From positions 186,001 through 250,000 of the forward strand of contig NZ_FTMZ01000004.1 in NCBI RefSeq assembly GCF_900156335.1: a DNA stretch of 64,000 bases, read 5' to 3'. Every line of letters starts with the position of its first letter. Position 1 is the stretch's first letter. Origin of the DNA: Sphaerotilus natans (GTDB taxonomy: Bacteria; Pseudomonadota; Gammaproteobacteria; Burkholderiales; Burkholderiaceae_C). Position numbers and translations under genes: made by a program. Below are positions 21,329-35,335 of this stretch, one piece after another. Under the pieces are notes generated by a model. The model did not search any database. It saw only the letters and a list, made by a program, of their open reading frames with translations, and was not told the origin of the DNA.

Positions 21329-21948
21329 GCGAACATCTCCTGCAGCTTGTCGATCGCGCCCTTGGTGACGACGACCTTCTTGTAGAAGACCAGCGACAGC
21401 GGATCAGCGTAACGCGGCTCGACGACCAGCACGTTGGCCAGGTTGCGGGCGGCCAGGAACAGGTTCTCGTCGACCTGGTCGGCGATGACCATGACGTGTT
21501 CCAGGTTCATCGCCTTCAGCTTGGCGGCCAGCAGCTTGGTCTTCGGCGCCTCGACCGACAGCGAGTCGATCACGACCAGACGGCCTTCGCGAGCCAGCTG
21601 CGAGAAGATGGCGGCCATGCCGGCGCGGTACATCTTCTTGTTGATCTTGTGCGAGAAGTTCTCGTCCGGGCTGTTCGGGAAGATGCGACCGCCCCCGCGC
21701 CACAGCGGCGACGAGGTCATGCCGGCGCGAGCGCGGCCGGTGCCCTTCTGGCGGAACGGCTTCTTGGTCGAGTGGTGAACCTGCTCGCGGTCCTTCTGGG
21801 CGCGGGTGCCTTGGCGGGCATTGGCCTGGTAGGCGACGACGATCTGGTGGATCAGCGACTCGTTGTAGTCACGTGCGAACACGGCGTCAGCGGCCTCGAC
21901 CTTCGACGCGGCCTGACCCTGCTCGTTCAGGAGTTCCAGCTGTGCCAT
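21325..21948 (-). CDS. rplD: 50S ribosomal protein L4
   Basis: 207 residues. Structural protein; in gammaproteobacteria L4 also autoregulates the S10 operon, but nothing in this leader proves that here. Motifs [20 protein letters not shown] and [19 protein letters not shown] are L4 signatures. Overlaps the rplC stop by 1 base. Confidence 0.98.
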
Positions 21949-22619
21949 CAGTTGGCTCCCTTCTTGACCTTGACCTTCACGGCCGGGCGGACGGTGACGA
22001 AGCCACCCTTGGCACCCGGAACAGCGCCCTTGACCAGCAGCAGCTGGCGAGCCTCGTCGACGCGAACGACGTCGAGGTTCTGGGTCGTGACGGTCTCGTC
22101 GCCCATGTGGCCGGTCATCTTCTTGCCCGGGAACACGCGACCCGGATCCTGCGCCATCGAGATGGAGCCCGGGACGTTGTGCGAACGGCTGTTGCCGTGC
22201 GAAGCGCGCTGCGAACCGAAGTTGTGGCGCTTGATCGTGCCGGCGAAGCCCTTGCCGATCGAGGTGCCCTGCACGTCGACCAGCTGGCCAGCGGCGAACA
22301 GCGTGGCCGACAGCGAGGCGCCAGCCTTGTATTCAGCGGCGACTTCCGGCGTGACGCGGAACTCTTCCAGCAGCTCGGCGCCTTCGACACCGGCCTTGGC
22401 CAGGTGACCGGCTTCCGGCTTGTTGACGCGCGAACCCTTACGGGTACCAAACGCCACTTGCAGGGCGGTGTAGCCGTCGGTTTCCACGGTTTTGACCTGG
22501 GCAACGCGGTTGTTGGACACGTCCAGCACGGTCACGGGCACGGTGTCACCGTCGTCCGTGAAGATGCGCATCATGCCCACCTTGCGGCCCAGCAACCCGA
22601 GGCGATTGCTAAGACTCAT
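21948..22619 (-). CDS. rplC: 50S ribosomal protein L3
   Basis: 223 residues. Early-assembly 23S rRNA-binding protein. [17 protein letters not shown] and the [20 protein letters not shown] region with the [15 protein letters not shown] loop are diagnostic. It is the first gene of this cluster; rpsJ, which usually precedes rplC, is not between it and the divergent speD. Confidence 0.98.
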
Positions 22620-22760
22620 GGTTCTTCTCCAATAACCCGACAGCGATTGGCCGGGCTGACCTGTCTGGCTGCACGCGCAAGGTTTGCTTCCTCAGAAGGC
22701 AGACCCGCTCGCGCAACGGCGAAATGGGGCGCAGGAATCCCAACACCCGAAAAGCTCGCG

Positions 22761-22789
22761 AGTATCGCACAGACACCCCGGACCCGCAA
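22761..22789 (-). promoter_or_regulatory. Candidate promoter of the rplC-led ribosomal cluster
   Basis: Minus-strand TTGCGG (22784-22789), a 17-base spacer and GATACT (22761-22766), preceded by TGC as an extended -10. It lies about 140 bases upstream of rplC, leaving a leader of about 130 bases. -35 is only 3/6 and -10 4/6, so this is tentative. Confidence 0.45.
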
Positions 22790-22825
22790 GGCATGTGTAT
22801 GCTAGTCGCATGACGGACCCGCACC

Positions 22826-23221
22826 ATGGACGGACTTCACCTCTGCGCCGAGTGGCATGACTGCGCCGCAACAGTGCTGCTGCACGATCGCGACGCGCTG
22901 CGCGAGGCCGGTGTCCGCGCTGCGCGCGAGGCGGGCCTGAGCGTCGTCGGCGAGGTCTTCCACGCCTTTCCCGAGCCCGGCGGGGTGACCGGCGTCGTGC
23001 TGCTGGCCGAGTCGCACCTGGCGCTGCACACCTGGCCGGAGCTGGCGGCGGTGACGCTCGACGTCTATGTCTGCAACCGCTCGGGCGACCACTCGGCGCA
23101 GGCGCGCCAGGTTCTGGAGGCGCTGCGGCCCCTGCTGCGCCCCGCCCGCGTCGAGGAGCGCGAGATCACCCGCGGTGCGCTCGGTCCGCCGTGCGCCGAC
23201 CCGCCAGCGTCCCCAGCGTGA
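22826..23221 (+). CDS. speD: S-adenosylmethionine decarboxylase proenzyme (bacterial SpeD)
   Basis: 131 residues. Self-cleaves to form a pyruvoyl cofactor and makes decarboxylated SAM, the aminopropyl donor for spermidine. LLAESHLALHTWPE contains the cleavage Ser63, His68 follows, and the catalytic Cys83 is in VYVCNRSGD. These positions match the short class-1B enzyme of Thermotoga. The 3' end overlaps the convergent amine-oxidase gene by 56 bases, and an aminopropyltransferase-like gene lies just beyond, so polyamine chemistry is local. Confidence 0.93.
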   Translation: MDGLHLCAEWHDCAATVLLHDRDALREAGVRAAREAGLSVVGEVFHAFPEPGGVTGVVLLAESHLALHTWPELAAVTLDVYVCNRSGDHSAQARQVLEALRPLLRPARVEEREITRGALGPPCADPPASPA

Positions 23222-24797
23222 AGGCTTCCTCGAAGACCGAATAGCCCGCCAGATCGGCATGGGCCAGCGCGACGCGGCCCGCCAGCCGGGTCAGCGCCCG
23301 GTGCGCCGGCGCCGAGCGCGTGCCCGGCAGCGGAATGCGCATCGCATGGCCGTGGCGCGCCAGCTCGATGCGGCGCAGCCGGGGCGGCAGGTCCGGATGC
23401 AGCGGCAGCAGATCGGCCAGCACCCGCTGCGCCCAGGGGCGCCAGTCCGCGCCCTGCAGCGCCGGCCGCTCGGCCGGGGACAGCGGCAGGTAGGCGGTCA
23501 GCACCGTCGGGCCGGCGTGCGGCCGTGTCGACTGATGCATCGCGTCGACATAGCCGAGCAAGGCGGTGCCGAAGGCGACGCTGTCCCAGGCGGACGACAC
23601 GCCGACACGCGCGAGCAGCGGCGCATCGAGATGCAGATTCGCCACCAGCCAAGGCGCGTGGCGCGCCTGCGCGGCCGTCTGGCGCAGCGCCTCAGGTGCG
23701 TCAGGCCACAGCCGCGCCGCCACATGCAGCGGCAGCGCCAGCACCACCCGCCCGGCCTGCCAGGCCTCGACGCGATCGGCGCGTGCATCCCAGGCCAGCA
23801 CCTGCACGCCCCCGCGCCCCTCGTCCAGCCGCAGCGCGACCCGCCCGGCGTGCAGCCGCCCGGCCGCGAAGGGCGCTGCCAGCCGCCGCGCCAGCCAGGC
23901 GTTGCCCTCGGGCCAAGTCAGCACCGGCTCGCGCTCGGCCTCGGCGTCGCCGGGGGCGTGGAAGCCGTGGCGGCTGGCGAAATAGTGCAGTCCGGCCCAG
24001 GCCGAGACGGTCGCGGCATCGGCGCCGTAGTCGTCGCGGCACGCGTAGTCGAGGTACCAGCGCAGCCGCGGCTCGTCCAGCCCGTGCGCGTCCAGCCAGG
24101 CGGCGAAGGTCTGCGCCTCCAGCGCCGCGTGGGCGGGCGTCCACGGCGTGCGCAGCGCCGGCATCGAGAAGCCGATCTGCCGCTGCGCCTCGGCGACGAG
24201 GCGGGAAAAGGCGCGGTACTGCGCCAGCAGGCGGCTGCCGGGCTCGGCCGGCGGCAGGAGGCCCTCATGCCATTCGCCGTCGATGAAGAGCCGCTCCTGC
24301 GGCGCGTGGCACAGGTGACGCTCGTCCCAGTGCCAGCGGCCGTGGGCGACGCGCGCCAGGCCGAAGTCCTGCAGCAGCTCGCGCACCTCGGCCGCCGCCT
24401 CGCCCGGCACCGGCAGGTAATGCGCGCCCAGCGGGCAGTCGAAGCCCGCCAGCCGATGGCCGCGCGAATGGCCGCCGGCCTCGTCCTCCAGCTCGATCAG
24501 GTGCACGTCGTCGACGCCGGCGCGATCGAGCGCACGCGCGGCCGCCAGCCCGGCGATGCCCGCACCCACCACCAGCACCGCTGCGCGGCGCGTGACCGCC
24601 GGCGCCGGCAGCGCGCCCGACTTGGTGCCGCCGAGCTCGCGCAGCCGGTGGCCGCGCGCGGCCGCGTCCGCGCCGATCCAGCCGCCGTCCAGCGCCGGCA
24701 GCGCGGCGTCGCAGCCGGCCAGACCCGATCCGGTCATGGCGGCCGTGGCCGCCAGCCCGGCCAGCACCTCGCGGCGCCTCAATGCGGCGCCCCCCAC
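23166..24797 (-). CDS. FAD-dependent amine oxidase-like protein, exported
   Basis: 543 residues. N-terminal RRREVLAGLAATAA followed by LAGC (Cys29) looks like a Tat signal with a lipobox. The dinucleotide fold [17 protein letters not shown] (about residues 74-90) ends at the acidic residue of IELEDEAGGHSRGH, as in flavin amine oxidases/NAD(P)-binding-like proteins. Start is GTG here; a TTG five codons downstream overlapping the previous stop is an alternative. It overlaps the aminopropyltransferase gene by 19 bases, so a polyamine or modified-polyamine substrate is plausible, but not shown. Confidence 0.82.
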   Translation of the reverse strand: MGGAALRRREVLAGLAATAAMTGSGLAGCDAALPALDGGWIGADAAARGHRLRELGGTKSGALPAPAVTRRAAVLVVGAGIAGLAAARALDRAGVDDVHLIELEDEAGGHSRGHRLAGFDCPLGAHYLPVPGEAAAEVRELLQDFGLARVAHGRWHWDERHLCHAPQERLFIDGEWHEGLLPPAEPGSRLLAQYRAFSRLVAEAQRQIGFSMPALRTPWTPAHAALEAQTFAAWLDAHGLDEPRLRWYLDYACRDDYGADAATVSAWAGLHYFASRHGFHAPGDAEAEREPVLTWPEGNAWLARRLAAPFAAGRLHAGRVALRLDEGRGGVQVLAWDARADRVEAWQAGRVVLALPLHVAARLWPDAPEALRQTAAQARHAPWLVANLHLDAPLLARVGVSSAWDSVAFGTALLGYVDAMHQSTRPHAGPTVLTAYLPLSPAERPALQGADWRPWAQRVLADLLPLHPDLPPRLRRIELARHGHAMRIPLPGTRSAPAHRALTRLAGRVALAHADLAGYSVFEEAFTLGTLAGRRTADRAHRG

Positions 24798-26365
24798 TCC
24801 TGCTCGAAGAGCCGCACCAGGCGCTGATCGGACAGGCGGTTCGGCGCCTCCTCGGTGCGCGCCATGTCGGGCGGGAAATGGCGCAGCGTGGCCATCACCT
24901 CAGGGGTCAGGAAGCGCAGTCCCGCCGGCAGCGCCGTCGGCGCCCGCCACGGCCGCCGGCCGGCGACGATGAAGCCCCACTCGCCGAAGCTCGGCACCAG
25001 CGCGTGGTAGGGCATGGTCGTCAGGCCGACCGCCTCCAGCGTCGCCGCCACCGTCCAGAAGCTGCGCCGCGCCACCAGCGGCGAGGTGGTCTGCACCGCC
25101 AGGAAGCCGCCCGCGGCCAGATGCTGATCGACGATGGCGTAGAAGCTGGTCGAGTAGAGCTTGCCGAGCGCGAAGTTGCTCGGATCGGGAAAGTCGATGA
25201 TGACCACGTCCCAGACCGCCGCCACGTCGCGCTGCGTCTCCAGCCAGGTGAAGGCGTCGGCATTGACCACCGTGACCTTCGGCGAGCGCAGCGCCCCGGC
25301 GTTGAGGGCGACCAGCCGCGACTCGGCCGAGAACAGCCGCGTCATCTGCGCATCCAGCTCGACCAGCGTGACCTGCTCGACCGAGGGATATTTCAGGATC
25401 TCGCGCACCGCCAGGCCGTCGCCGCCGCCCAGCACCAGCACCCGGCGCGGCGCACCGTGCGCGGCCATCGCCGGATGCACCAGCGCCTCGTGGTAGCGGT
25501 ACTCGTCGCGCTCGTGGAACTGCAGGTTGCCGTTGAGGAAGAGCCGGATGCCGGCGCGCCCGCCGGTCACGACGATGCGCTGGTAGTCGCTCGACGCGGC
25601 GTGCAGGATGCGGTCGCCGTAGAAGCGGTCCTCGGCCCAGGCGGTCAGCCGCTCCGAGCCAGCCAGTGCCAGCAGCAGCAGCCCGATCACGCCGGCGCAG
25701 GCCAGCGCCAGCAGCCGCACCCGACGCAGCTCGCCCCGGAACAGCCACAGCGCCCACACCGCCACGCCCGCGTTCATCAGCCCGAACACCAGCCCGGTGC
25801 GGATCAGCCCCAGGTGCGGCACCAGCAGCAACGGAAACGCCAGCGCCACCGCCAGCGCGCCCAGATAGTCGAAGGTCAGCACCTGCGACACCAGATCCTT
25901 CAGCGCATAGCGCTGGCTGAACTGGCGCTTGAGGATGCGCATCACCAGCGGAATCTCCAGCCCGACCAGCGCACCCACCAGCAGCACCAGCGCATACAAG
26001 AGCGTGCGAAAGGCGGTGTCGGCGCCGCTCGGCAGCAGGTTGTGCGCGACGAAGAGCCCGGCCGGCAGCAGCCCGCCCACCAGCCCGACCAGCAGCTCGA
26101 CGCCCAGGAACTGCGCCACCAGCTGGCGCTCGACGAAGCGGCTCAGCCACGAGCCGATCCCCATCGCGAACAGATAGGCGCCGATGACGGTGGAGAACTG
26201 CAGCACCGAGTCGCCAAGCAGGTAGCTCGCCAGCGCCCCCGCCGCCAGCTCGTAGATCAGCCCGCAGGCGGCGATCAGGAAGACCGAGGCCAGCAGCGTG
26301 ACCTCGGCGGGCGAGATGCGCGCGTCGGCACCCGCCGCGGCGCGGGCGTCGGCCGGAGCGCTCAC
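24779..26365 (-). CDS. Membrane-embedded polyamine aminopropyltransferase (spermidine synthase-like)
   Basis: 528 residues. About the first 230 residues form seven or so membrane helices (for example VTLLASVFLIAACGLIYELAA). Then comes a soluble spermidine-synthase fold with VLVLGGGDGLAVREIL (about 306-321), VELDAQ, and DVVIIDFPDPSNFALGKLYS carrying the catalytic Asp. Predicted to transfer an aminopropyl group from decarboxylated SAM (SpeD lies nearby) at the membrane face. GTG start overlaps the DUF350 stop by 4 bases (GTGA). The upstream in-frame extension has no family resemblance. Confidence 0.88.
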   Translation of the reverse strand: MSAPADARAAAGADARISPAEVTLLASVFLIAACGLIYELAAGALASYLLGDSVLQFSTVIGAYLFAMGIGSWLSRFVERQLVAQFLGVELLVGLVGGLLPAGLFVAHNLLPSGADTAFRTLLYALVLLVGALVGLEIPLVMRILKRQFSQRYALKDLVSQVLTFDYLGALAVALAFPLLLVPHLGLIRTGLVFGLMNAGVAVWALWLFRGELRRVRLLALACAGVIGLLLLALAGSERLTAWAEDRFYGDRILHAASSDYQRIVVTGGRAGIRLFLNGNLQFHERDEYRYHEALVHPAMAAHGAPRRVLVLGGGDGLAVREILKYPSVEQVTLVELDAQMTRLFSAESRLVALNAGALRSPKVTVVNADAFTWLETQRDVAAVWDVVIIDFPDPSNFALGKLYSTSFYAIVDQHLAAGGFLAVQTTSPLVARRSFWTVAATLEAVGLTTMPYHALVPSFGEWGFIVAGRRPWRAPTALPAGLRFLTPEVMATLRHFPPDMARTEEAPNRLSDQRLVRLFEQEWGAPH

Positions 26366-26577
26366 CCGTGAATGGCCGCCGCCACGATCTGCCCGATCGC
26401 GATGAACATCGCGCCGACGACGATCGCCAGCGCCAGGTTCTTGTGCTCGACGATCTCCTCCCAGAGCTTGTAAGGCGTGAGCTTGTCGATGACGATGAAG
26501 CTGATCCACAGCACCGCCACGCCGATGACGGCGTAGAGGATGGAGCCGAGGATCACGGCGGGCTTGAGCATCTCCAT
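26362..26577 (-). CDS. DUF350 small membrane protein
   Basis: 71 residues, two membrane helices (about 7-29 and 48-68) separated by the polar segment DKLTPYKLWEEIVEHKN. This is the DUF350/YjfL architecture. Function unproven; family members occur beside PspA-type, DUF4178 and spermidine-synthase-like genes. Coupled to the aminopropyltransferase by a 4-base overlap. Confidence 0.88.
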   Translation of the reverse strand: MEMLKPAVILGSILYAVIGVAVLWISFIVIDKLTPYKLWEEIVEHKNLALAIVVGAMFIAIGQIVAAAIHG

Positions 26578-26596
26578 GGGGACTCTCCGGTTGAGC

Positions 26597-28231
26597 TTAC
26601 TTGTGGCCGCCGCCGCCCCCGCCGCCGCTGCCCCACGATCCGCCGTAGGCGCCGCTGCCGGACGAGGTGCGCTGGCGCGCCAGGCATTGCTGGTATTCGG
26701 CGCTGGCCGGGCCGAAGGTGCTGCGGATCTCGTCGCAGCGATCCTCGCTGCAGCGCGCGATCAGCAGCACGACGAACAGGATCAGCAGGATCAGGATGAT
26801 GACACCGGCGCAGCCCAGGCCGCGGCCCTTGGCACCTGCCGCCACCGGCGCGGCATCGCGCCTGAGGGCCGCCCCGGCCTGCGCGTCCAGTCCGAAGGCG
26901 GCGGCCACCGCGCTGGCCTCCAGCGTCTCGCCGGCCGACCAGGTGACCTCGCCGCCGCCCGCGCCCGGGGTCTGCTCGCGGCTCAGGCGCTTGCGCCGGC
27001 TCGGTCCCTCGCCTTCGTAGTCGGTGACCTCGACCGGCTCGTCGCGGCGGATGCGCCAGTAGAACTCGCCGATCACATGGACCGTCTTGGCGCGGTAGCG
27101 CCAGCGCTGGCGCAGGCGCGCGCCGGCCCAGGTGGCCCGGTCGCCCTGCACCACCGGCACGCCGGTGAGCGGCCGCACCCAGCTCCAGCCCTCCTCGGTG
27201 TCGACCAGGAAGACGAAGCCCTCGGTCGGGTGGTAGAGCAGGTATTCGCGCCAGAAGGTCTGCTCGTCGTCGCTGCCCGGCGCGGGCAGGTCGCAGCGCT
27301 CCAGGTAGCCGACCACCTGCCAGGGCAGCGGCTGCGGCGCGCCCAGCGCCAGCGTGCCGACCGTGCCCAGCGGGATCTGCGGCTCGATGACCGCGTTCTG
27401 CGCAAAATGCGCCAGATCGGCGCCGACGCCCTGCGAGACATCGACCACCGCGCGGCACTGGCCGCAGCTGACCGACTGCGTGCTGTCCAGCCGGATCTCC
27501 AGCGAGGCGCCGCAGCTCGGGCATTCGATGCTGCGGCCCGCCAGCGTCTTCTCGCTGCCCAGGTCGCGCAGGCCGGCGAGCTGCAGCTCGGCCAGCCGCA
27601 CCGCGCGGCCGACCGACCACTGCGGCCGCGCCGGCTCGGCGTAGTCGAGCGTGCCGACCTCGTCCTGGGCGTTGCGCAGGTCGGCGATGACGAACTCGCG
27701 GTCGGCCGGCGCGCCGGCAGGCTGCGGCGGGCGCGGCAGCTCGCCCTCGGCCGCGTGCACCTGCGCCTGCACCACCGAGGCGACCTCCCAGCTGCGGCCG
27801 TCGATCAGCGCCTTCTGGCCGGGGAACAGCGTGCCGGCCTGCGGCACGCGGTCGTCGAGCGGCCGGTCCAGCGCCAGCACATGCGCGCCGTTGTCCTCCG
27901 ACAGCCAGGCGCTGCGCAGCCCCGAGGCGGCGTCGCCGGCATCGAACAGCGCATGCCACTCGGTCCAGCGGCCGTCGGCATAGGCGTACTGCACGCGCCC
28001 GACCAGCGTGAAGGCCGCGCCCTGCCAGCGCCCCGTGACGCCGAGCTGCAGCGGCGAGTGGTCGTCGAACAGCTCGGCGCTCTGGCCGATGCGGCGCAGC
28101 GCCTCGCCCTCGCGCACCAGCGTCGAGCGGCAGTGGCCGCACACCGCGCTGGCCGAGGCCGCCGAGCGGAACTCGACCGGCGCGCCGCAGTTCGGGCAGG
28201 CCGCGCGGTAGGTGCGGTAGGTCTCGGCCAC
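26597..28231 (-). CDS. DUF4178 protein with two zinc ribbons
   Basis: 544 residues. Two zinc ribbons: CPNCG...CGHC at residues 12-34 and CPSCG...CGQC at about 234-255. Each is followed by a beta-rich DUF4178-like region (RIGQSAELFDDHSPLQLG and its second copy), so the protein is probably an internal duplication. A single membrane helix follows near the end (GVIILILLILFVVLLIA, about 480-496) and a Gly/Ser tail ending GGGGGGGHK. GTG start lies 1 base after the SPFH gene stop. Molecular function unknown; likely a membrane-tethered scaffold. Confidence 0.85.
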   Translation of the reverse strand: MAETYRTYRAACPNCGAPVEFRSAASASAVCGHCRSTLVREGEALRRIGQSAELFDDHSPLQLGVTGRWQGAAFTLVGRVQYAYADGRWTEWHALFDAGDAASGLRSAWLSEDNGAHVLALDRPLDDRVPQAGTLFPGQKALIDGRSWEVASVVQAQVHAAEGELPRPPQPAGAPADREFVIADLRNAQDEVGTLDYAEPARPQWSVGRAVRLAELQLAGLRDLGSEKTLAGRSIECPSCGASLEIRLDSTQSVSCGQCRAVVDVSQGVGADLAHFAQNAVIEPQIPLGTVGTLALGAPQPLPWQVVGYLERCDLPAPGSDDEQTFWREYLLYHPTEGFVFLVDTEEGWSWVRPLTGVPVVQGDRATWAGARLRQRWRYRAKTVHVIGEFYWRIRRDEPVEVTDYEGEGPSRRKRLSREQTPGAGGGEVTWSAGETLEASAVAAAFGLDAQAGAALRRDAAPVAAGAKGRGLGCAGVIILILLILFVVLLIARCSEDRCDEIRSTFGPASAEYQQCLARQRTSSGSGAYGGSWGSGGGGGGGHK

Positions 28232-28232
28232 C

Positions 28233-29273
28233 TCAGACCAGCTTCTTCAGCAACTCGGTCTTCTTGGCGGTGAACTCCTCGTCGGTGAGGATGCCCCGGG
28301 CCTTCAGGTCGGCGAGCTTTTCCAGCGTGGCCATGATCTCGTCGGGCTGGAGCGCCGCGACCGGCGCGGCCGCAGGCGCCGCAGCGGCGGGCGCCGGCTG
28401 CAGGCCCTGCTGCATCGCCTGCGCCATCGTCTGGCCCAGCGCCATGCCCGCGCCGAGCCCCATCGCGTCGCCGGCGATGCCGCTGCCCTGGCCGGCGTTC
28501 TCGGCGAACTTCGGGAGCGCCTGCGCGGCCTGGTACTGCATGAACTGGCCAATGTTCTGGCCGATCATGCCCATGCCGATCTTCTGGTCGAGAATCTTCT
28601 GCAGCTCCTCCGGCAGCGAGACGTTCTGCAGCGTCACCGTCTCCAGCGCCAGGCCCAGGCGGGCGAACTCCGGCGCCGCCGCCGCCTTGAGCTGCGCGGC
28701 GAACTCGACCTGGTTGGCCGCCAGATCCAGGAAGGGGATGCCCGACTGCGCCACCGCGTCCGACAGGTGCTGCAGCAGGAAGCCGCGCAGCTGGCCGTCG
28801 ATCTCGGCGGCGGTATAGCGCTCGCGCGTGCCGGAGACTTCTTTCATGAAGGCGCGCGGATCGACCAGCCGCCAGGCGAAGTTGCCGAAGGCGCGCAGCC
28901 GCACCGCGCCGAAGTCCTTGTCGCGGATCGTCACCGGCTGCTGCGTGCCCCAGCGCTGGTCGACCTGCTGGCGGGTGCTGAAGAAATAGACATCGCTCTT
29001 GAAGGGCGAGGCGAAGAGCTTGTCCCAGTTCTTGAGGTTGGTCAGCAGCGGCAGCGTCTGCGTCGTCAGCCGGTGCAGGCCGGGGCCGAAGACATCGGCC
29101 ACCTGGCCCTCGTTGACGAAGACCGCCATCTGCGACTCGCGCACCGTGAGCGAGGCACCGTTCTGGATCTCATTGTCGGCCATCGGGAAGCGCCAGGCCA
29201 GCGTGCCGTCGCCGGCCTCGGTCCACTCCAGGACATCGATGAACTGCTTGCGGATGAAATCGAACAGCGACAT
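28233..29273 (-). CDS. SPFH/Band-7 protein with C-terminal SHOCT domain (YdjI-like)
   Basis: 346 residues. Opens MSLFDFIRKQFIDVLEW, typical of the 'virion core protein/YdjI' SPFH group. The SPFH domain spans about residues 30-240 (QMAVFVNEGQVADVFGPG, PVTIRDKDFGAVRLRAFG). An Ala/Pro linker leads to a SHOCT domain (LEKLADLKARGILTDEEF, about 313-343). No membrane helix, so cytosolic or peripheral. First gene of the minus-strand run; an imperfect -10 (TATGAT) lies at 29320-29325. Family members bind membrane assemblies; the role here is inferred as a scaffold. Confidence 0.88.
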   Translation of the reverse strand: MSLFDFIRKQFIDVLEWTEAGDGTLAWRFPMADNEIQNGASLTVRESQMAVFVNEGQVADVFGPGLHRLTTQTLPLLTNLKNWDKLFASPFKSDVYFFSTRQQVDQRWGTQQPVTIRDKDFGAVRLRAFGNFAWRLVDPRAFMKEVSGTRERYTAAEIDGQLRGFLLQHLSDAVAQSGIPFLDLAANQVEFAAQLKAAAAPEFARLGLALETVTLQNVSLPEELQKILDQKIGMGMIGQNIGQFMQYQAAQALPKFAENAGQGSGIAGDAMGLGAGMALGQTMAQAMQQGLQPAPAAAAPAAAPVAALQPDEIMATLEKLADLKARGILTDEEFTAKKTELLKKLV

Positions 29274-29368
29274 GGCGCACTCCGGACGAACAGGGGAAGG
29301 GGCAGAGACCCTGATCAGGATCATACGCAGCCGACAGGAAATTCATCGTCCGCGACCGGCCGACACGC

Positions 29369-29374
29369 TATAAA
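29369..29374 (+). promoter_or_regulatory. Candidate -10 element before the first DUF898 gene
   Basis: TATAAA lies 37 bases before the ATG at 29411. The -35 region is weak (TCGTCC at 17 bases). The second DUF898 gene has the same TATAAAG at 31682-31688 in a similar position, which adds some weight. Confidence 0.35.
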
Positions 29375-29410
29375 GTGAAAAACCTGAGCTGCTCAGGGAG
29401 GGAGTGATCC

Positions 29411-30544
29411 ATGACGGAACCGGACCTCGGCCAGTCTTCGCGCGTGCTGCCGCTGCGCTTCACCGCCTCGGGCAGCGAGTACTTCCGCATCTGGGTGGTC
29501 AACCTGCTGCTGACCGTGATGACGCTGGGGCTCTATCTGCCCTTCGCCCGAGCCCGGCAGCTGCGCTACTTCCACGAGAACACGCTGATCGACGGCGCGC
29601 CGCTGGCCTTTCACGGCGACCCGTGGAAGATGCTGCGCGGCTACCTGATCATCGGTGCGGCCCTGCTGGTCTATCTGGTGGGGAGCCAGTTCGCGCCGCT
29701 GCTGGCGGTCGGCGCCGCCCTGCTGGGCATGCTGGCCTGGCCCTGGCTGCTGTGCTCGGCGCTGCGCTTCCGGCTCGGCCAGACCAGCTGGCGCGGGCTG
29801 CGCTTCGGCTTCATCGGCACGGTCGCCGAAGCCTACCGGGTCTTCCTGCCGCTGATCGTGCTGCTGGGCACGGTGCTGGCGCTGAGCCCGGTGCTGGCAC
29901 CCGATGTCACGCCGGAGGGCGAGGCCGCCGCCCCGCCGATCTGGCTGATCGGCCTGTTCCTGGCGGCGATGCTCGGCCTCTATGCCTGCGGCCCCTGGAT
30001 CCTGCTGCGGCTGATGCGCTACCGCTTCGACCACTTCACCTTCGCCGGCGAGCAGAGCCGGCTGGAGGGCGTGCGGGTGCGCGATCTCTGGAAGCTCGGC
30101 GCCAAGTCGATGCTGCTGATGATGGCCGCCGGCCTGGGCGTGGCGCTGGTCAGCATGGCGGTGGCGATGGTGCTGCCGCCGGCCATGTTCGTGCTCGGGC
30201 CGCTGGCCTACCTGGCGCTGGTCACGCTGATGATGGCCTACTCCGGCGCGCGGATGCAGAACCTGTTCTGGAACCACGCACGCAGCGCGCATCTGAGCTT
30301 CGCCAGCCAGCTCTCGTTCAGCGCGCTGTGGGGCCTGCTGCTGAAGAACGCGGTGCTGACCGGCCTGACGCTGGGCCTGTACTGGCCGTTCGCCGCGGTG
30401 GCTGCCGCACGCATGAAGCTCGAGGCGATGTCGGTCACCACCGACTGCCCGGTCGAGCATTTCCTCGGCACGTCGACACGCCGCGATCCGAGCGCCATCG
30501 GCGAGGCCGCCGACGACCTGCTGGGGATCGATGTCGCCTTCTGA
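29411..30544 (+). CDS. DUF898 (YjgN-family) membrane protein, copy 1
   Basis: 377 residues with about six to eight membrane helices. Two internally similar halves each end in a motif like TLGLYLPFARARQLRYF / TLGLYWPFAAVAAARMK, the YjgN/DUF898 signature. Begins with LRFTASGSEYFRIWVVN. Function unknown. Overlaps the M48 peptidase gene by 14 bases, so the two are translationally linked. GGAGGGAG lies upstream of the ATG. Confidence 0.9.
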   Translation: MTEPDLGQSSRVLPLRFTASGSEYFRIWVVNLLLTVMTLGLYLPFARARQLRYFHENTLIDGAPLAFHGDPWKMLRGYLIIGAALLVYLVGSQFAPLLAVGAALLGMLAWPWLLCSALRFRLGQTSWRGLRFGFIGTVAEAYRVFLPLIVLLGTVLALSPVLAPDVTPEGEAAAPPIWLIGLFLAAMLGLYACGPWILLRLMRYRFDHFTFAGEQSRLEGVRVRDLWKLGAKSMLLMMAAGLGVALVSMAVAMVLPPAMFVLGPLAYLALVTLMMAYSGARMQNLFWNHARSAHLSFASQLSFSALWGLLLKNAVLTGLTLGLYWPFAAVAAARMKLEAMSVTTDCPVEHFLGTSTRRDPSAIGEAADDLLGIDVAF

Positions 30545-31613
30545 GCGCCCGCTGGCCGCGCCGGTCGCGCATTTCGACGGCCGCAGCGCGGCCGCCCGGG
30601 CGGTCCGCCTGGTGCTGGTCCCGGCGCCGGACGGCCTGCGCCTGCGCATTCTCGACAGCAGCAGCGGCCAGCTCGTCGCCGAGCATGCCGCCGACCGCCT
30701 GGACTGGCCCGAACACCAGCGCCACGGCCCGCGGCTGCTGCATCTGCCCGACGGCGGCCAGCTGCACTGCCACCAGGGCGCCGTGTGGGACCGGTGGGCG
30801 CTGCAGCGTCCGGGCGGCCGCCCCTGGGTCGAACGGCTGCAGCAGAGCTGGCGCGCCACCGCCCTGGCGCTGCTGGCCTGCGTGCTGGCGCTCGGGCTGA
30901 TCCACGCGCTGGGTCTGCCGCTGCTGGCGCGCGGCGTGCTGGTGCTGGTGCCGGCATCGGTCGATGCCTCGATCGGCCAGGCGACGCTGGCCGAGATCGA
31001 GCAGCACTGGTGCGAGCCCAGCCACCTGCCGGACACCACCGCGCAGCGGCTCGGCGAGGCGCTGGCCCGGGCGCAGCAGCAGCGCGCCGATCAGGGCGGG
31101 CCGGCGCCCGTTCCGGTGCAGGTGCGGCTGTGCCGCAGCCGCGAGCAGGCCGAGCTCGGCCCGAACGCGCTGGCCCTGCCCGGCGGCACGATCCTGGTGA
31201 CCGATGCGCTGGTCGAGCTGCTGCACGACCGCGAGGATGTGCTGCTGGGCGTGCTCGCGCACGAGGCCGGCCACGTTCGCCATCGCCACGGCATGCGGCT
31301 GCTGGTGCAGGCCACGCTGCTGGGCGCGGCCGGCAGCGTGCTCTTCGGCGACTTCGGCAGCCTGGTCGGCCAGATTCCGCTGCTGCTGGGCCAGCTGGCC
31401 TACTCGCGCGAGGCCGAGCGCGAGGCCGACGACGAGGCCATCGTGCTGCTGCGCGCCGCCGGCCTGTCGCCGGCCGTCATGGTGACGCTGTTCGAGCGCC
31501 TGGCCGGCCCGGACGGCACCGGCCGCGACAACGCGCCGCCGATCGCGCTGGCCAGCCATCCGGCCGATGCCGAGCGCATCGCCCGCTTCCAGCAGGCCGC
31601 GGAGGCCCGCTGA
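30531..31613 (+). CDS. M48-family metallopeptidase (active-site intact)
   Basis: 360 residues. The N-terminal region (1-105) is a small beta-rich domain. A membrane helix follows (about 110-130), then an M48 peptidase domain with zinc motif HEAGH at residues 244-248 and a third ligand in EREADDEA near residue 298. ALPGGTILVTDALVE is the M48 edge strand. A second hydrophobic segment follows the zinc helix. Expected to clip membrane or periplasmic substrates, perhaps the DUF898 partner or misfolded envelope proteins (inference). Confidence 0.9.
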   Translation: MSPSERPLAAPVAHFDGRSAAARAVRLVLVPAPDGLRLRILDSSSGQLVAEHAADRLDWPEHQRHGPRLLHLPDGGQLHCHQGAVWDRWALQRPGGRPWVERLQQSWRATALALLACVLALGLIHALGLPLLARGVLVLVPASVDASIGQATLAEIEQHWCEPSHLPDTTAQRLGEALARAQQQRADQGGPAPVPVQVRLCRSREQAELGPNALALPGGTILVTDALVELLHDREDVLLGVLAHEAGHVRHRHGMRLLVQATLLGAAGSVLFGDFGSLVGQIPLLLGQLAYSREAEREADDEAIVLLRAAGLSPAVMVTLFERLAGPDGTGRDNAPPIALASHPADAERIARFQQAAEAR

Positions 31614-31681
31614 CACGCGCCCGCAGACGCTTTTCGACGCCCCAGCCTCCAGGTTCCCGCCAGACCCGCTGCGGATTTGTT

Positions 31682-31687
31682 TATAAA
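31682..31687 (+). promoter_or_regulatory. Candidate -10 element before the second DUF898 gene
   Basis: TATAAA 33 bases before the ATG at 31720, mirroring the first DUF898 gene. No good -35 hexamer was found at 16-18 bases. Confidence 0.3.
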
Positions 31688-31719
31688 GCGGCCCGGCACC
31701 GTCGGGGGGGCCTGCGCAC

Positions 31720-32823
31720 ATGACCAACACATCCGATCCAGACCAGCACCACACGGGCACCGGGCAGACGCTGCCGATCCGCTTCACCGCCTCCGGGCGG
31801 GACTATGCCCGGCTGTGGCTGCGCAACCTGGGCCTGACGCTGATCACGCTCGGGCTCTACCTGCCTTTCGCACGGGCGCACCGGCTGCGCTTCTTTCGCC
31901 AGCACACCCAGGTCGATGGCGAGGCGCTCGACTTCGACGGCGATGGCCGCGAGATGCTGCGCCCTCACCTGCTGCTGTGCGCGGTGCTGCTGCTCTACAT
32001 CCTGATCGCCCATGAGATGCCGCTGGGCGCAGCGCTGCTGCTGCTGGGCGCGCTGCCGTTCTGGCCGACGCTGATGCTGCGCTCGCTGCGCTGGCGGCTG
32101 GCGCACACGCGCTGGCGCGGCCGGCGCCTGGCCTTTCACGGCGATGCGGCCGGCGCGCGAGCGGTCTTCCTGCCCGCAGCCGCGCCGCTGGCGGTGCTGC
32201 TGATCGGTCAGGCCCTGCTGGCCGGACCACAGGCCGAATTCGATGACGGCGGCGGCTGGCTGATGCCCGCGCTGGTCAGCCTGGCGCTGCTGGCGCTGCT
32301 GGCGCTGCTGCCCTGGCTGCATGCCCGGCTCAGCCGCTATCGCCACGCGAATTTCGGCCTGAACGCAGACGCAGGCGCGGGCGCGGGTACAGGCCCGGCC
32401 GCGCAGGCCGAGCGCACCGGGCTCGACGCGAGCGTGGAGCCGCGCCATTTCTACCGTCTGCATGGCGGCGTGCTGGCCGGGCTGGCCGGGGCGCTGCTGA
32501 TCAACCTGCTGTTCGCGACCTGGATCGACACCCTGCTGGCTGCCGCACCGGTGCTCACAGGCCTGCTGCTGGACATGACGCTGCTGCTGGCGCTGCGCGC
32601 CTGGCTGGTCGCCGGCACCCAGGCACTGCTGTGGAACCACACCCGCAGCGCGCACTACCGCTTCGCCTGCCACCTGCCACTGTCACGCCTTCTGCTGCTG
32701 TCGCTGAAGAACCTGCTGCTGTGCGTGCTGACGCTGGGGCTGTACTGGCCGCATGCGGTGGTCGCCACCACCCGGCTGCGGCTGGAGTCGATCACCCTGA
32801 GCCGCCTGCCTGGGACGAATTGA
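31720..32823 (+). CDS. DUF898 (YjgN-family) membrane protein, copy 2
   Basis: 367 residues. Clear paralogue of the protein at 29411-30544: IRFTASGRDYARLWLRN, TLGLYLPFARAHRLRFF and, at the end, TLGLYWPHAVVATTRLRLE align directly. About eight hydrophobic segments. A Gly/Ala/Thr-rich loop (about residues 216-230) is specific to this copy. It begins about 106 bases after the M48 gene and carries its own M48-like partner downstream. Confidence 0.9.
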   Translation: MTNTSDPDQHHTGTGQTLPIRFTASGRDYARLWLRNLGLTLITLGLYLPFARAHRLRFFRQHTQVDGEALDFDGDGREMLRPHLLLCAVLLLYILIAHEMPLGAALLLLGALPFWPTLMLRSLRWRLAHTRWRGRRLAFHGDAAGARAVFLPAAAPLAVLLIGQALLAGPQAEFDDGGGWLMPALVSLALLALLALLPWLHARLSRYRHANFGLNADAGAGAGTGPAAQAERTGLDASVEPRHFYRLHGGVLAGLAGALLINLLFATWIDTLLAAAPVLTGLLLDMTLLLALRAWLVAGTQALLWNHTRSAHYRFACHLPLSRLLLLSLKNLLLCVLTLGLYWPHAVVATTRLRLESITLSRLPGTN

Positions 32824-32918
32824 AACAATCCATCCACCCTCCTGGGGACTGCCAGCGCGCCCTGCGGCGGCTAGAGTGATGTCGATGATGGCGGTCTTCC
32901 ATCGACAGGGAGAACAGG

Positions 32919-35335
<2,417 letters not shown>

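Follow-up and report, generated by a model that had tools for sequence, protein, structure and literature searches.

Many bacteria carry an AdoMet decarboxylase together with a membrane-fused, spermidine-synthase-like protein that is said not to make spermidine. Which compound then receives the aminopropyl group, and on which side of the membrane, is the question raised by a set of six genes of Sphaerotilus natans, all of which are present at 22826-29273 of the window, i.e. the whole stretch of 64,000 nucleotides analysed (contig NZ_FTMZ01000004.1, positions 186,001 to 250,000). Here we explore the set and its membrane aminopropyltransferase, hereafter PAPT. We read the genes as a dedicated envelope aminopropylation unit in which PAPT acts on the periplasmic side and its acceptor is probably not a polyamine, and give this reading a probability of about 0.5. 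What the analysis would add to known work, as judged from sequence, are differences on the acceptor side of PAPT, signs of a periplasmic active site and a single exchange between SPFH and PspA. The six genes are as follows.

22826..23221, plus strand: speD, class 1b S-adenosylmethionine (SAM) decarboxylase, 131 aa, with Ser63/His68/Cys83 and Pro71 (AdoMet_dc, TIGR03330)
23166..24797, minus strand: flavin adenine dinucleotide (FAD)-dependent oxidoreductase of the Amino_oxidase superfamily, 543 aa, with a twin-arginine motif and lipobox (RRREVLAGLA...LAGC), without a Lys300-type lysine
24779..26365, minus strand: PAPT, 528 aa, GTG start, a seven-segment N-terminal membrane part fused to a SpeE-like aminopropyltransferase domain (NF002956)
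26362..26577, minus strand: DUF350 protein of half length, 71 aa, two hydrophobic helices (Pfam)
26597..28231, minus strand: DUF4178 protein, 544 aa, two CxxC zinc-ribbon-like stretches, two DUF4178 domains and a C-terminal transmembrane (TM) helix at 474-492
28233..29273, minus strand: SPFH (Band_7_1) protein with a C-terminal SHOCT, 346 aa (Pfam), no TM segment by hydropathy

An earlier sequence-only reading of this DNA had named these six genes and their families, and Pfam and NCBIfam bear it out. Pfam scores were 96.7 bits for AdoMet_dc, 63.3 for Amino_oxidase, 116.8 for Spermine_synth, 90.9 for DUF4178 (two stretches) and 264.2 for Band_7_1 plus 37.1 for SHOCT; the DUF350 match of 54.6 bits covers profile positions 6-66 of 133, about half a domain. 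In the NCBIfam scan SpeD passes TIGR03330 (89.9 bits, cut-off 75.65) and PAPT passes NF002956 (673.8, cut-off 472), a model named polyamine aminopropyltransferase. PAPT scores below the speE equivalog TIGR00417 (140.3 against 249.55 bits) and slightly below NF037959, 'fused MFS/spermidine synthase' (37.1 against 40), and the DUF350 and SPFH proteins had no NCBIfam match at E 0.01. The five minus-strand genes overlap or lie at most 20 bases apart, as had been stated: one base separates the SPFH and DUF4178 genes and 19, the largest gap, the DUF4178 and DUF350 genes, DUF350 and PAPT overlap by four bases with the PAPT start inside GTGA, and PAPT and the FAD gene overlap by 19. The convergent speD shares 56 bases with the 3' end of the FAD gene.

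The active site of PAPT and its acceptor

NF002956 was run over 249 genomes of the phylum, 28 of which scored above its cut-off, the S. natans genome included. For comparison of active sites, 28 membrane PAPT were aligned with 20 soluble SpeE of the phylum and the outcome was rechecked in 108 collected PAPT. Among solved structures, a profile built from 49 PAPT picks out polyamine aminopropyltransferases (best 1uir, E 3.6e-46), and 11 catalytic positions or positions binding decarboxylated SAM (dcSAM) are identical across the 28 membrane PAPT and the 20 soluble SpeE. For the sequence-only reading an inactive PAPT site would have been a refutation; none is seen at this level, ten core positions (Q262, Y291, H292, G313, G315, D316, D338, D370, D391 and D394) being invariant in 108/108 PAPT. 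By these residues the catalytic and dcSAM core of PAPT is intact. That the domain merely senses dcSAM or polyamine, signalling via SPFH, DUF350 and DUF4178 without a chemical product, as a passage of Ravi et al. 2024 would favour, is quite improbable with the catalytic aspartates and dcSAM motif invariant in all 108 rows and a dcSAM-making enzyme often accompanying PAPT.

The acceptor side differs from that of the soluble enzymes. Phe460, present in 108/108 PAPT, is Tyr in 20/20 soluble SpeE, and Pro393, likewise in 108/108, is Thr in 19/20. Position 402 holds Lys or Arg in 107/108 PAPT (27 of the 28 aligned) and Ala, Val, Gly or Ser in 18/20 soluble SpeE, and Asn278 (103/108; 24 of the 28 aligned) stands where all 20 soluble SpeE have Asp. 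The Tyr at the Phe460 position presumably faces the attacking amine in SpeE. With the catalytic core kept, these changes favour a different acceptor, other than putrescine and perhaps anionic.

A competing view keeps PAPT a polyamine enzyme, tethered and facing the cytosol, which would produce spermidine or an aminopropylated diamine, as free polyamine, close to the membrane while the FAD protein degrades exported polyamine. PAPT does have the SpeE fold by sequence with the full catalytic set, its NCBIfam name is that of a polyamine enzyme, and the genome encodes two basic amino acid decarboxylases as possible sources of a diamine. We nevertheless hold this view to be unlikely, since Phe460 and Pro393 depart from the soluble enzymes in every row, the PAPT score stays under the speE cut-off of TIGR00417, the charge pattern described below places the domain outside, and a later paper, in its passage on bacterial membrane-SpdSyn homologues, calls them uninvolved in spermidine/spermine biosynthesis. 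Given that paper and the altered acceptor side, the 'polyamine' in the name first given to this locus is probably the wrong product class.

Membrane side of the catalytic domain

Seven TM segments were assigned to the membrane part of PAPT, TM2 by hand. On the biological scale the best 19-mers of TM2 have a mean of 2.3, the other segments range from 0.7 to 3.5 and the most membrane-like 19-mer of the C-terminal domain scores 9.1. At least one Lys or Arg occurs in the N-terminus and loops 2-3, 4-5 and 6-7 in 27 or 28 of the 28 rows (means 3.07, 2.25, 1.89 and 3.07), and loops 1-2, 3-4 and 5-6 are poor in both (means 0.32, 0.57 and 0.07). Predicted inside stretches exceed outside ones in Lys plus Arg in 108/108 PAPT (8.9 vs 1.1), a comparison helped by the greater total length of the inside loops, for which the proper measure is the content per residue: 0.11, 0.01, 0.23, 0.08, 0.19, 0.04 and 0.33 from the N-terminus through loop 6-7. 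With loop 6-7 inside by the positive-inside rule, the SpeE domain after TM7 comes to lie outside. When TM2 is omitted the N-terminus flips outside and the C-terminal domain is still placed outside, because loops 4-5 and 6-7 remain inside.

Cysteine content follows the same division. The SpeE core is cysteine-free in 24/28 membrane PAPT vs 0/20 soluble SpeE (mean 0.14 vs 3.35 cysteines); across the 108 PAPT the membrane part has 0.93 cysteines per 100 residues vs 0.10 for the C-terminal domain, which lacks cysteine altogether in 79/108. Exported domains commonly avoid cysteine, which is not in itself proof of export. Charge pattern and cysteine avoidance together suggest that the active site of PAPT is on the periplasmic face, which sharpens to one side the transfer 'at the membrane' claimed before. 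Three acidic residues lie in predicted TM segments, E137 and D166 invariant and E90 in 106 of the 108 PAPT.

The side is also where the strongest competitor stands, namely aminopropylation of a non-polyamine by a cytosolic catalytic domain, for example of a lipid or membrane protein accessible from that side. In its favour, both SpeD and dcSAM belong to the cytosol and no dcSAM exporter is known; moreover, the membrane part was counted by hydropathy, with TM2 not called in two runs. This arrangement would require the positive loop 6-7 (K+R mean 3.07) to lie outside, or TM7 not to cross, and would leave the cysteine avoidance unexplained. We consider it improbable on balance, if the least so of the alternatives.

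For the periplasmic unit that we prefer, the following course is proposed. SpeD, by its family and residues, would decarboxylate SAM in the cytosol; PAPT, with its catalytic residues intact, would use the dcSAM and transfer the aminopropyl group to an acceptor that is probably not a polyamine. From charge and cysteine avoidance the membrane part is predicted to end such that the catalytic domain faces the periplasm, and E90, E137 and D166 could, speculatively, enable this part to hand cationic dcSAM, or else the acceptor, on to the catalytic domain. The FAD protein, of the twin-arginine translocation (Tat) type and often with a lipobox, might oxidise the product or its breakdown product in the periplasm. 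On the cytosolic membrane face SPFH-SHOCT may be held by integral partners, probably DUF4178, DUF350 and PAPT, in the manner of YdjI, and it would fill the place of PspA in related operons. Tuning of envelope charge or stability under stress is the likely purpose. A more detailed version, to which we attach somewhat less than even odds, makes PAPT an extracytoplasmic family whose seven-helix part is a half-transporter for dcSAM or the acceptor, with an anionic envelope target (phospholipid or a lipid A headgroup) and a Tat flavoprotein that trims or oxidises the product. If the catalytic domain is periplasmic, the acceptor should be sought among outer-leaflet lipids, lipopolysaccharide, peptidoglycan and exported proteins, and the export signal on the partner flavoprotein would be explained; if true, an extracytoplasmic PAPT means SAM-derived aminopropyl chemistry outside the cytoplasm.

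Recurrence of the set, its partners and its scaffold

As a contrast to the 28 PAPT genomes, 28 genomes without PAPT were hand-picked from the 221 others (2 of the same family, 6 of the same order and 20 of the same class). DUF4178 was found in 18/28 PAPT genomes (17 of the 18 over the cut-off) vs 0/28, DUF350 in 27/28 vs 8/28, and SpeD (PF02675) at any score in 23/28 vs 17/28, or, with a threshold of 77 bits that was set once the scores were known, in 21/28 vs 2/28. Fisher p values for DUF4178, DUF350 and SpeD at 77 bits or more are 1.2e-7, 1.3e-7 and 2.9e-7, uncorrected for kinship, for which the comparison is also unmatched, the positives spanning further taxonomically than the negatives.

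A profile search of genome contigs provided the loci themselves. The best 80 of 559 relatives were taken as named loci, which lean to near relatives and include many metagenome bins; by record titles they span Burkholderiales, Rhodocyclales, Gallionellaceae, Acidobacteria, Gemmatimonadetes, Nitrospinota and Leptospiraceae. In 46 of these PAPT is flanked on either side by 7 kb or more, and there the script found FAD in 41, SPFH in 40, DUF4178 in 43, DUF350 in 43 and SpeD in 26. Two weaker FAD matches ('pao?') were left uncounted, and the script undercounts DUF4178, some of whose proteins at PspA-type loci are detected by Pfam and not by its profile, as well as PspA (10 vs 11 by genome search). 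Partners share the strand of PAPT in the best 80 of 559 in 67/67 cases for FAD, 65/67 for DUF350, 68/70 for DUF4178, 54/57 for SPFH and 16/37 for SpeD. Several Acidobacteria/Gemmatimonadetes loci (e.g. L123, L125, L131, L134, L138) show the order SPFH-SpeD-DUF4178-DUF350-PAPT-FAD on one strand, and Ralstonia and Duganella loci (L135, L136) have the set divided into two divergent halves, so the set is kept across phyla despite changed gene order. The six-gene linkage is strong and recurs well beyond close relatives, a co-occurrence across genomes that the sequence-only reading had left to be checked and that now rests on well-flanked loci from distant phyla.

Chance clustering is rejected by linkage kept in distant phyla with altered order. 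Shared regional ancestry without joint function would fit those Burkholderiales loci in which unrelated genes separate DUF350 from PAPT, and the fact that speD is often elsewhere; with the set kept while its order differs between phyla, and the association holding in distant genomes, it is very improbable. Such insertions lie at 3699-10001 of L096 and 7853-9946 of L082. Those scanned (DNA methylase, Schlafen/AlbA, type III restriction helicase, TonB receptor) were rejected as extra module parts.

The most variable feature is the scaffold. It had been said that no PspA is present here, and this holds for the whole S. natans genome, in which no protein matched PF04012. That related sets recur beside PspA had been stated as well, and agrees both with 11 of 28 sampled PAPT genomes, in which some 6 kb at most separate pspA from PAPT, and with the operons that Ravi et al. 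2024 (PMC11237479) describe. SPFH is linked to PAPT in seven genomes, five of them without PspA, and in the script survey SPFH and PspA never stood together at one of 107 loci. On a PAPT tree of 52 rows (28 plus 24 of the 108 PAPT), made by a quick method with a long-branch warning, the SPFH/PspA label changes once among 34 labelled rows (200 shuffles: mean 9.4, minimum 6; branch 99.8), the 18 rows without a scaffold label being excluded and locus L034 counted as SPFH although its SPFH gene is about 12 kb away. An exchange of scaffold between SPFH and PspA is thus seen on the tree; by analogy SPFH may serve as scaffold here, where PspA is lacking.

By hydropathy 19 of 20 aligned SPFH proteins, like that of the window, have no TM segment, and one has a TM-like segment. 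Five of the 20 (L124, L125, L129, L131 and L132, from Acidobacteriota and Gemmatimonadota) end in an apparent zinc ribbon (two CxxC) instead of SHOCT, much as YdjI of B. subtilis does, and the C-terminal part of these proteins seems interchangeable. The DUF4178 protein has its TM segment near the C-terminus in 34/35 homologues, with flanking charges of 0.94 before and 1.51 after it, which do not settle the side. Its tail behind the helix (residues 493-544) carries three cysteines in 18/35 homologues; if periplasmic, they might form disulfides.

SpeD carries Ser63, His68 and Cys83 in the numbering first given for it, and it is the only PF02675 match in its genome. It also keeps Pro71, which would correspond to the conserved Pro that separates class 1b enzymes from SpeD-derived arginine decarboxylases; with the TIGR03330 equivalog passed and this Pro kept, a neofunctionalised ornithine/arginine decarboxylase is not favoured. 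speD is the loosest member of the set. Two PAPT genomes of the same class without PF02675 SpeD (G216, G162) have a class 2 (eukaryote-type) AdoMet decarboxylase elsewhere. In two genomes of the same family (G082, G196) the sole PF02675 SpeD adjoins a soluble SpeE domain in an open frame of equal length (448 and 451 aa) away from PAPT, and the two are probably one fused protein. In S. natans a second PF01564 protein is PRK04457-like yet below that NCBIfam cut-off (162.1 vs 304) and reads GLGAAAL where PAPT has GGGDG; PAPT is the best candidate user of dcSAM in the genome, though perhaps not the only one. A PF02784 gene was rejected as ornithine decarboxylase, since it passed the diaminopimelate decarboxylase model. 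Both basic amino acid decarboxylases mentioned above are AAT-fold proteins below all listed NCBIfam cut-offs.

For the FAD protein 'amine oxidase' is a superfamily label. The Tat/lipobox FAD protein announced under that name is there; the lysine column of polyamine and monoamine oxidases is not. In 75 aligned FAD sequences the twin arginines are conserved in 95% or more of those rows that are filled at the site, a simple lipobox pattern is found in 49, of which 46 have RR or KR shortly upstream, and no column filled in more than 80% of rows has Lys in 30% or more. Their profile matches putrescine oxidase (E 3.1e-13) and MAO-B. Lys300 is described as strictly conserved in polyamine oxidase Clades I-IV and in the archaeal, diatom and stramenopile clades, with one archaeal Val tabulated, and the equivalent lysine is present in MAO and PuO; as the bacterial SpdH clade falls outside that table, an amine may still be the substrate. 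A spermidine dehydrogenase-like reading had an N-terminal match in one profile search only, and that match was not seen with a profile of the FAD N-terminal part (best 60 of 169 rows) and with a single member. On the PAPT tree the FAD gene is present in 20/23 SPFH loci vs 0/11 PspA loci. Partners at loci outside the SPFH clade look extracytoplasmic too: those of cluster c9 have a lipobox in 6/6, and 6/7 of cluster c5 have a hydrophobic stretch near the N-terminus, as seen by eye. By its signals the FAD protein should be in the periplasm.

Around the six genes, 206 bases separate the start of speD from the divergent rplC. In this genome the S10 ribosomal operon is split: at window 21948-22826 rplC is its first gene, with speD divergent upstream, and rpsJ lies on another contig (C40:475-759), behind an apparent tuf end recognised by eye and ahead of a LysR-like gene on the opposite strand. 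None of the 107 other PAPT loci was found to contain rplC. Within 22400-29700 no sigma-70-like promoter was found, and the single terminator-like site, compared with a shuffle mean of 1.9, is on the minus strand at 29397-29383, a short way upstream of the SPFH gene. Beyond it, at 29411-33824 on the plus strand, Pfam finds a DUF898 + DUF7092 gene pair twice in tandem, with an M48 peptidase domain in the first DUF7092 protein and no M48 match in the second.

The reading weighed and compared with known systems

Several points weigh against an envelope unit with a periplasmic PAPT domain. Hydropathy and charge are the basis of its topology: TM2 was missed in two Kyte-Doolittle runs, TM5 comes out weakest on the biological scale, and the SPFH proteins, predicted cytosolic, are likewise cysteine-poor (0.33%). 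We know of no route for dcSAM into the periplasm. The rows behind counts over 108 PAPT are related and not independent. Linkage has its gaps as well: of the 23 PAPT genomes with a PF02675 SpeD, 10 have it on a different contig from PAPT or 24 kb or more away, and the other five of the 28 lack it, two of these five carrying the class 2 enzyme; DUF350 occurs without PAPT in the eight genomes counted above; neither scaffold is found by the script in 12/27 sampled loci and 23 of the best 80 named loci; and two of the seven genomes with PAPT-linked SPFH have pspA elsewhere. Finally, the second PF01564 protein passes its Pfam cut-off (30.5 vs 22.9) and might use dcSAM, and the two AAT-fold decarboxylases could supply a diamine acceptor.

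The locus is a member of an already described kind of gene set. The proposal of a linked set that would make dcSAM for a membrane aminopropyltransferase, together with a scaffold, thus stands, as a kind known before. Li et al. in 2019 (Biochem J 476:2579) reportedly described a cluster of AdoMetDC, membrane-SpdSyn and DUF350 whose AdoMetDCs are active and whose fusion is said to make no spermidine. Like that cluster, the present locus has an AdoMetDC gene, a SpdSyn-like domain fused to an N-terminal multi-helix part and a DUF350 neighbour; DUF4178, SPFH-SHOCT and the Tat-type FAD protein are additions. Literature searches for DUF4178, and for DUF350 with DUF4178 and spermidine synthase, returned Ravi et al. 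2024 alone within the collection searched, and among the matches listed for aminopropylated lipids or membrane proteins nothing relevant was seen in titles and the start of abstracts.

In its relevant sections Ravi et al. 2024 (PMC11237479, mSystems), who cite Li et al. 2019 and count seven TM in the SpeE fusion, describe a group 2 of CesT/Tir-PspA, 7TM-SpeE fusion, DUF350, DUF4178 and a lipoprotein, and, under their ATP-grasp group, a PspA-less variant of band-7-2TM-SHOCT with AdoMetDC and polyamine oxidase. These sections give no membrane side for the SpeE domain. Shared between the variants so described and our locus are the 7TM-SpeE fusion, DUF350, DUF4178, AdoMetDC, the FAD 'polyamine oxidase', band-7/SHOCT and the missing PspA. 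The locus differs from the band-7 variant of those sections in that its SPFH protein has no TM segment by hydropathy, its FAD protein lacks the polyamine-oxidase lysine, and its six genes include no ATP-grasp enzyme of the glutathionylspermidine synthetase-like sort; Pfam found none in these and the four proteins beyond the SPFH gene, the part of the genome searched.

For the scaffold the nearest parallel is pspA-ydjGHI of Bacillus subtilis, whose YdjI is, in the portion of PMC8581546 that deals with it, an SPFH protein with a C-terminal zinc finger and without an anchor of its own, which needs integral partners at the membrane and recruits PspA. A PF13421 match in B. subtilis was taken as YdjI. 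The window SPFH resembles the protein so portrayed in belonging to the Band_7_1 family and in lacking a membrane anchor, and differs from it in having SHOCT and no zinc finger and in a genome without PspA. With soluble SpeE (e.g. PDB 1uir), PAPT shares the sequence family and the catalytic and dcSAM residues, and is set apart by its membrane part, its altered acceptor side and its almost complete want of cysteine.

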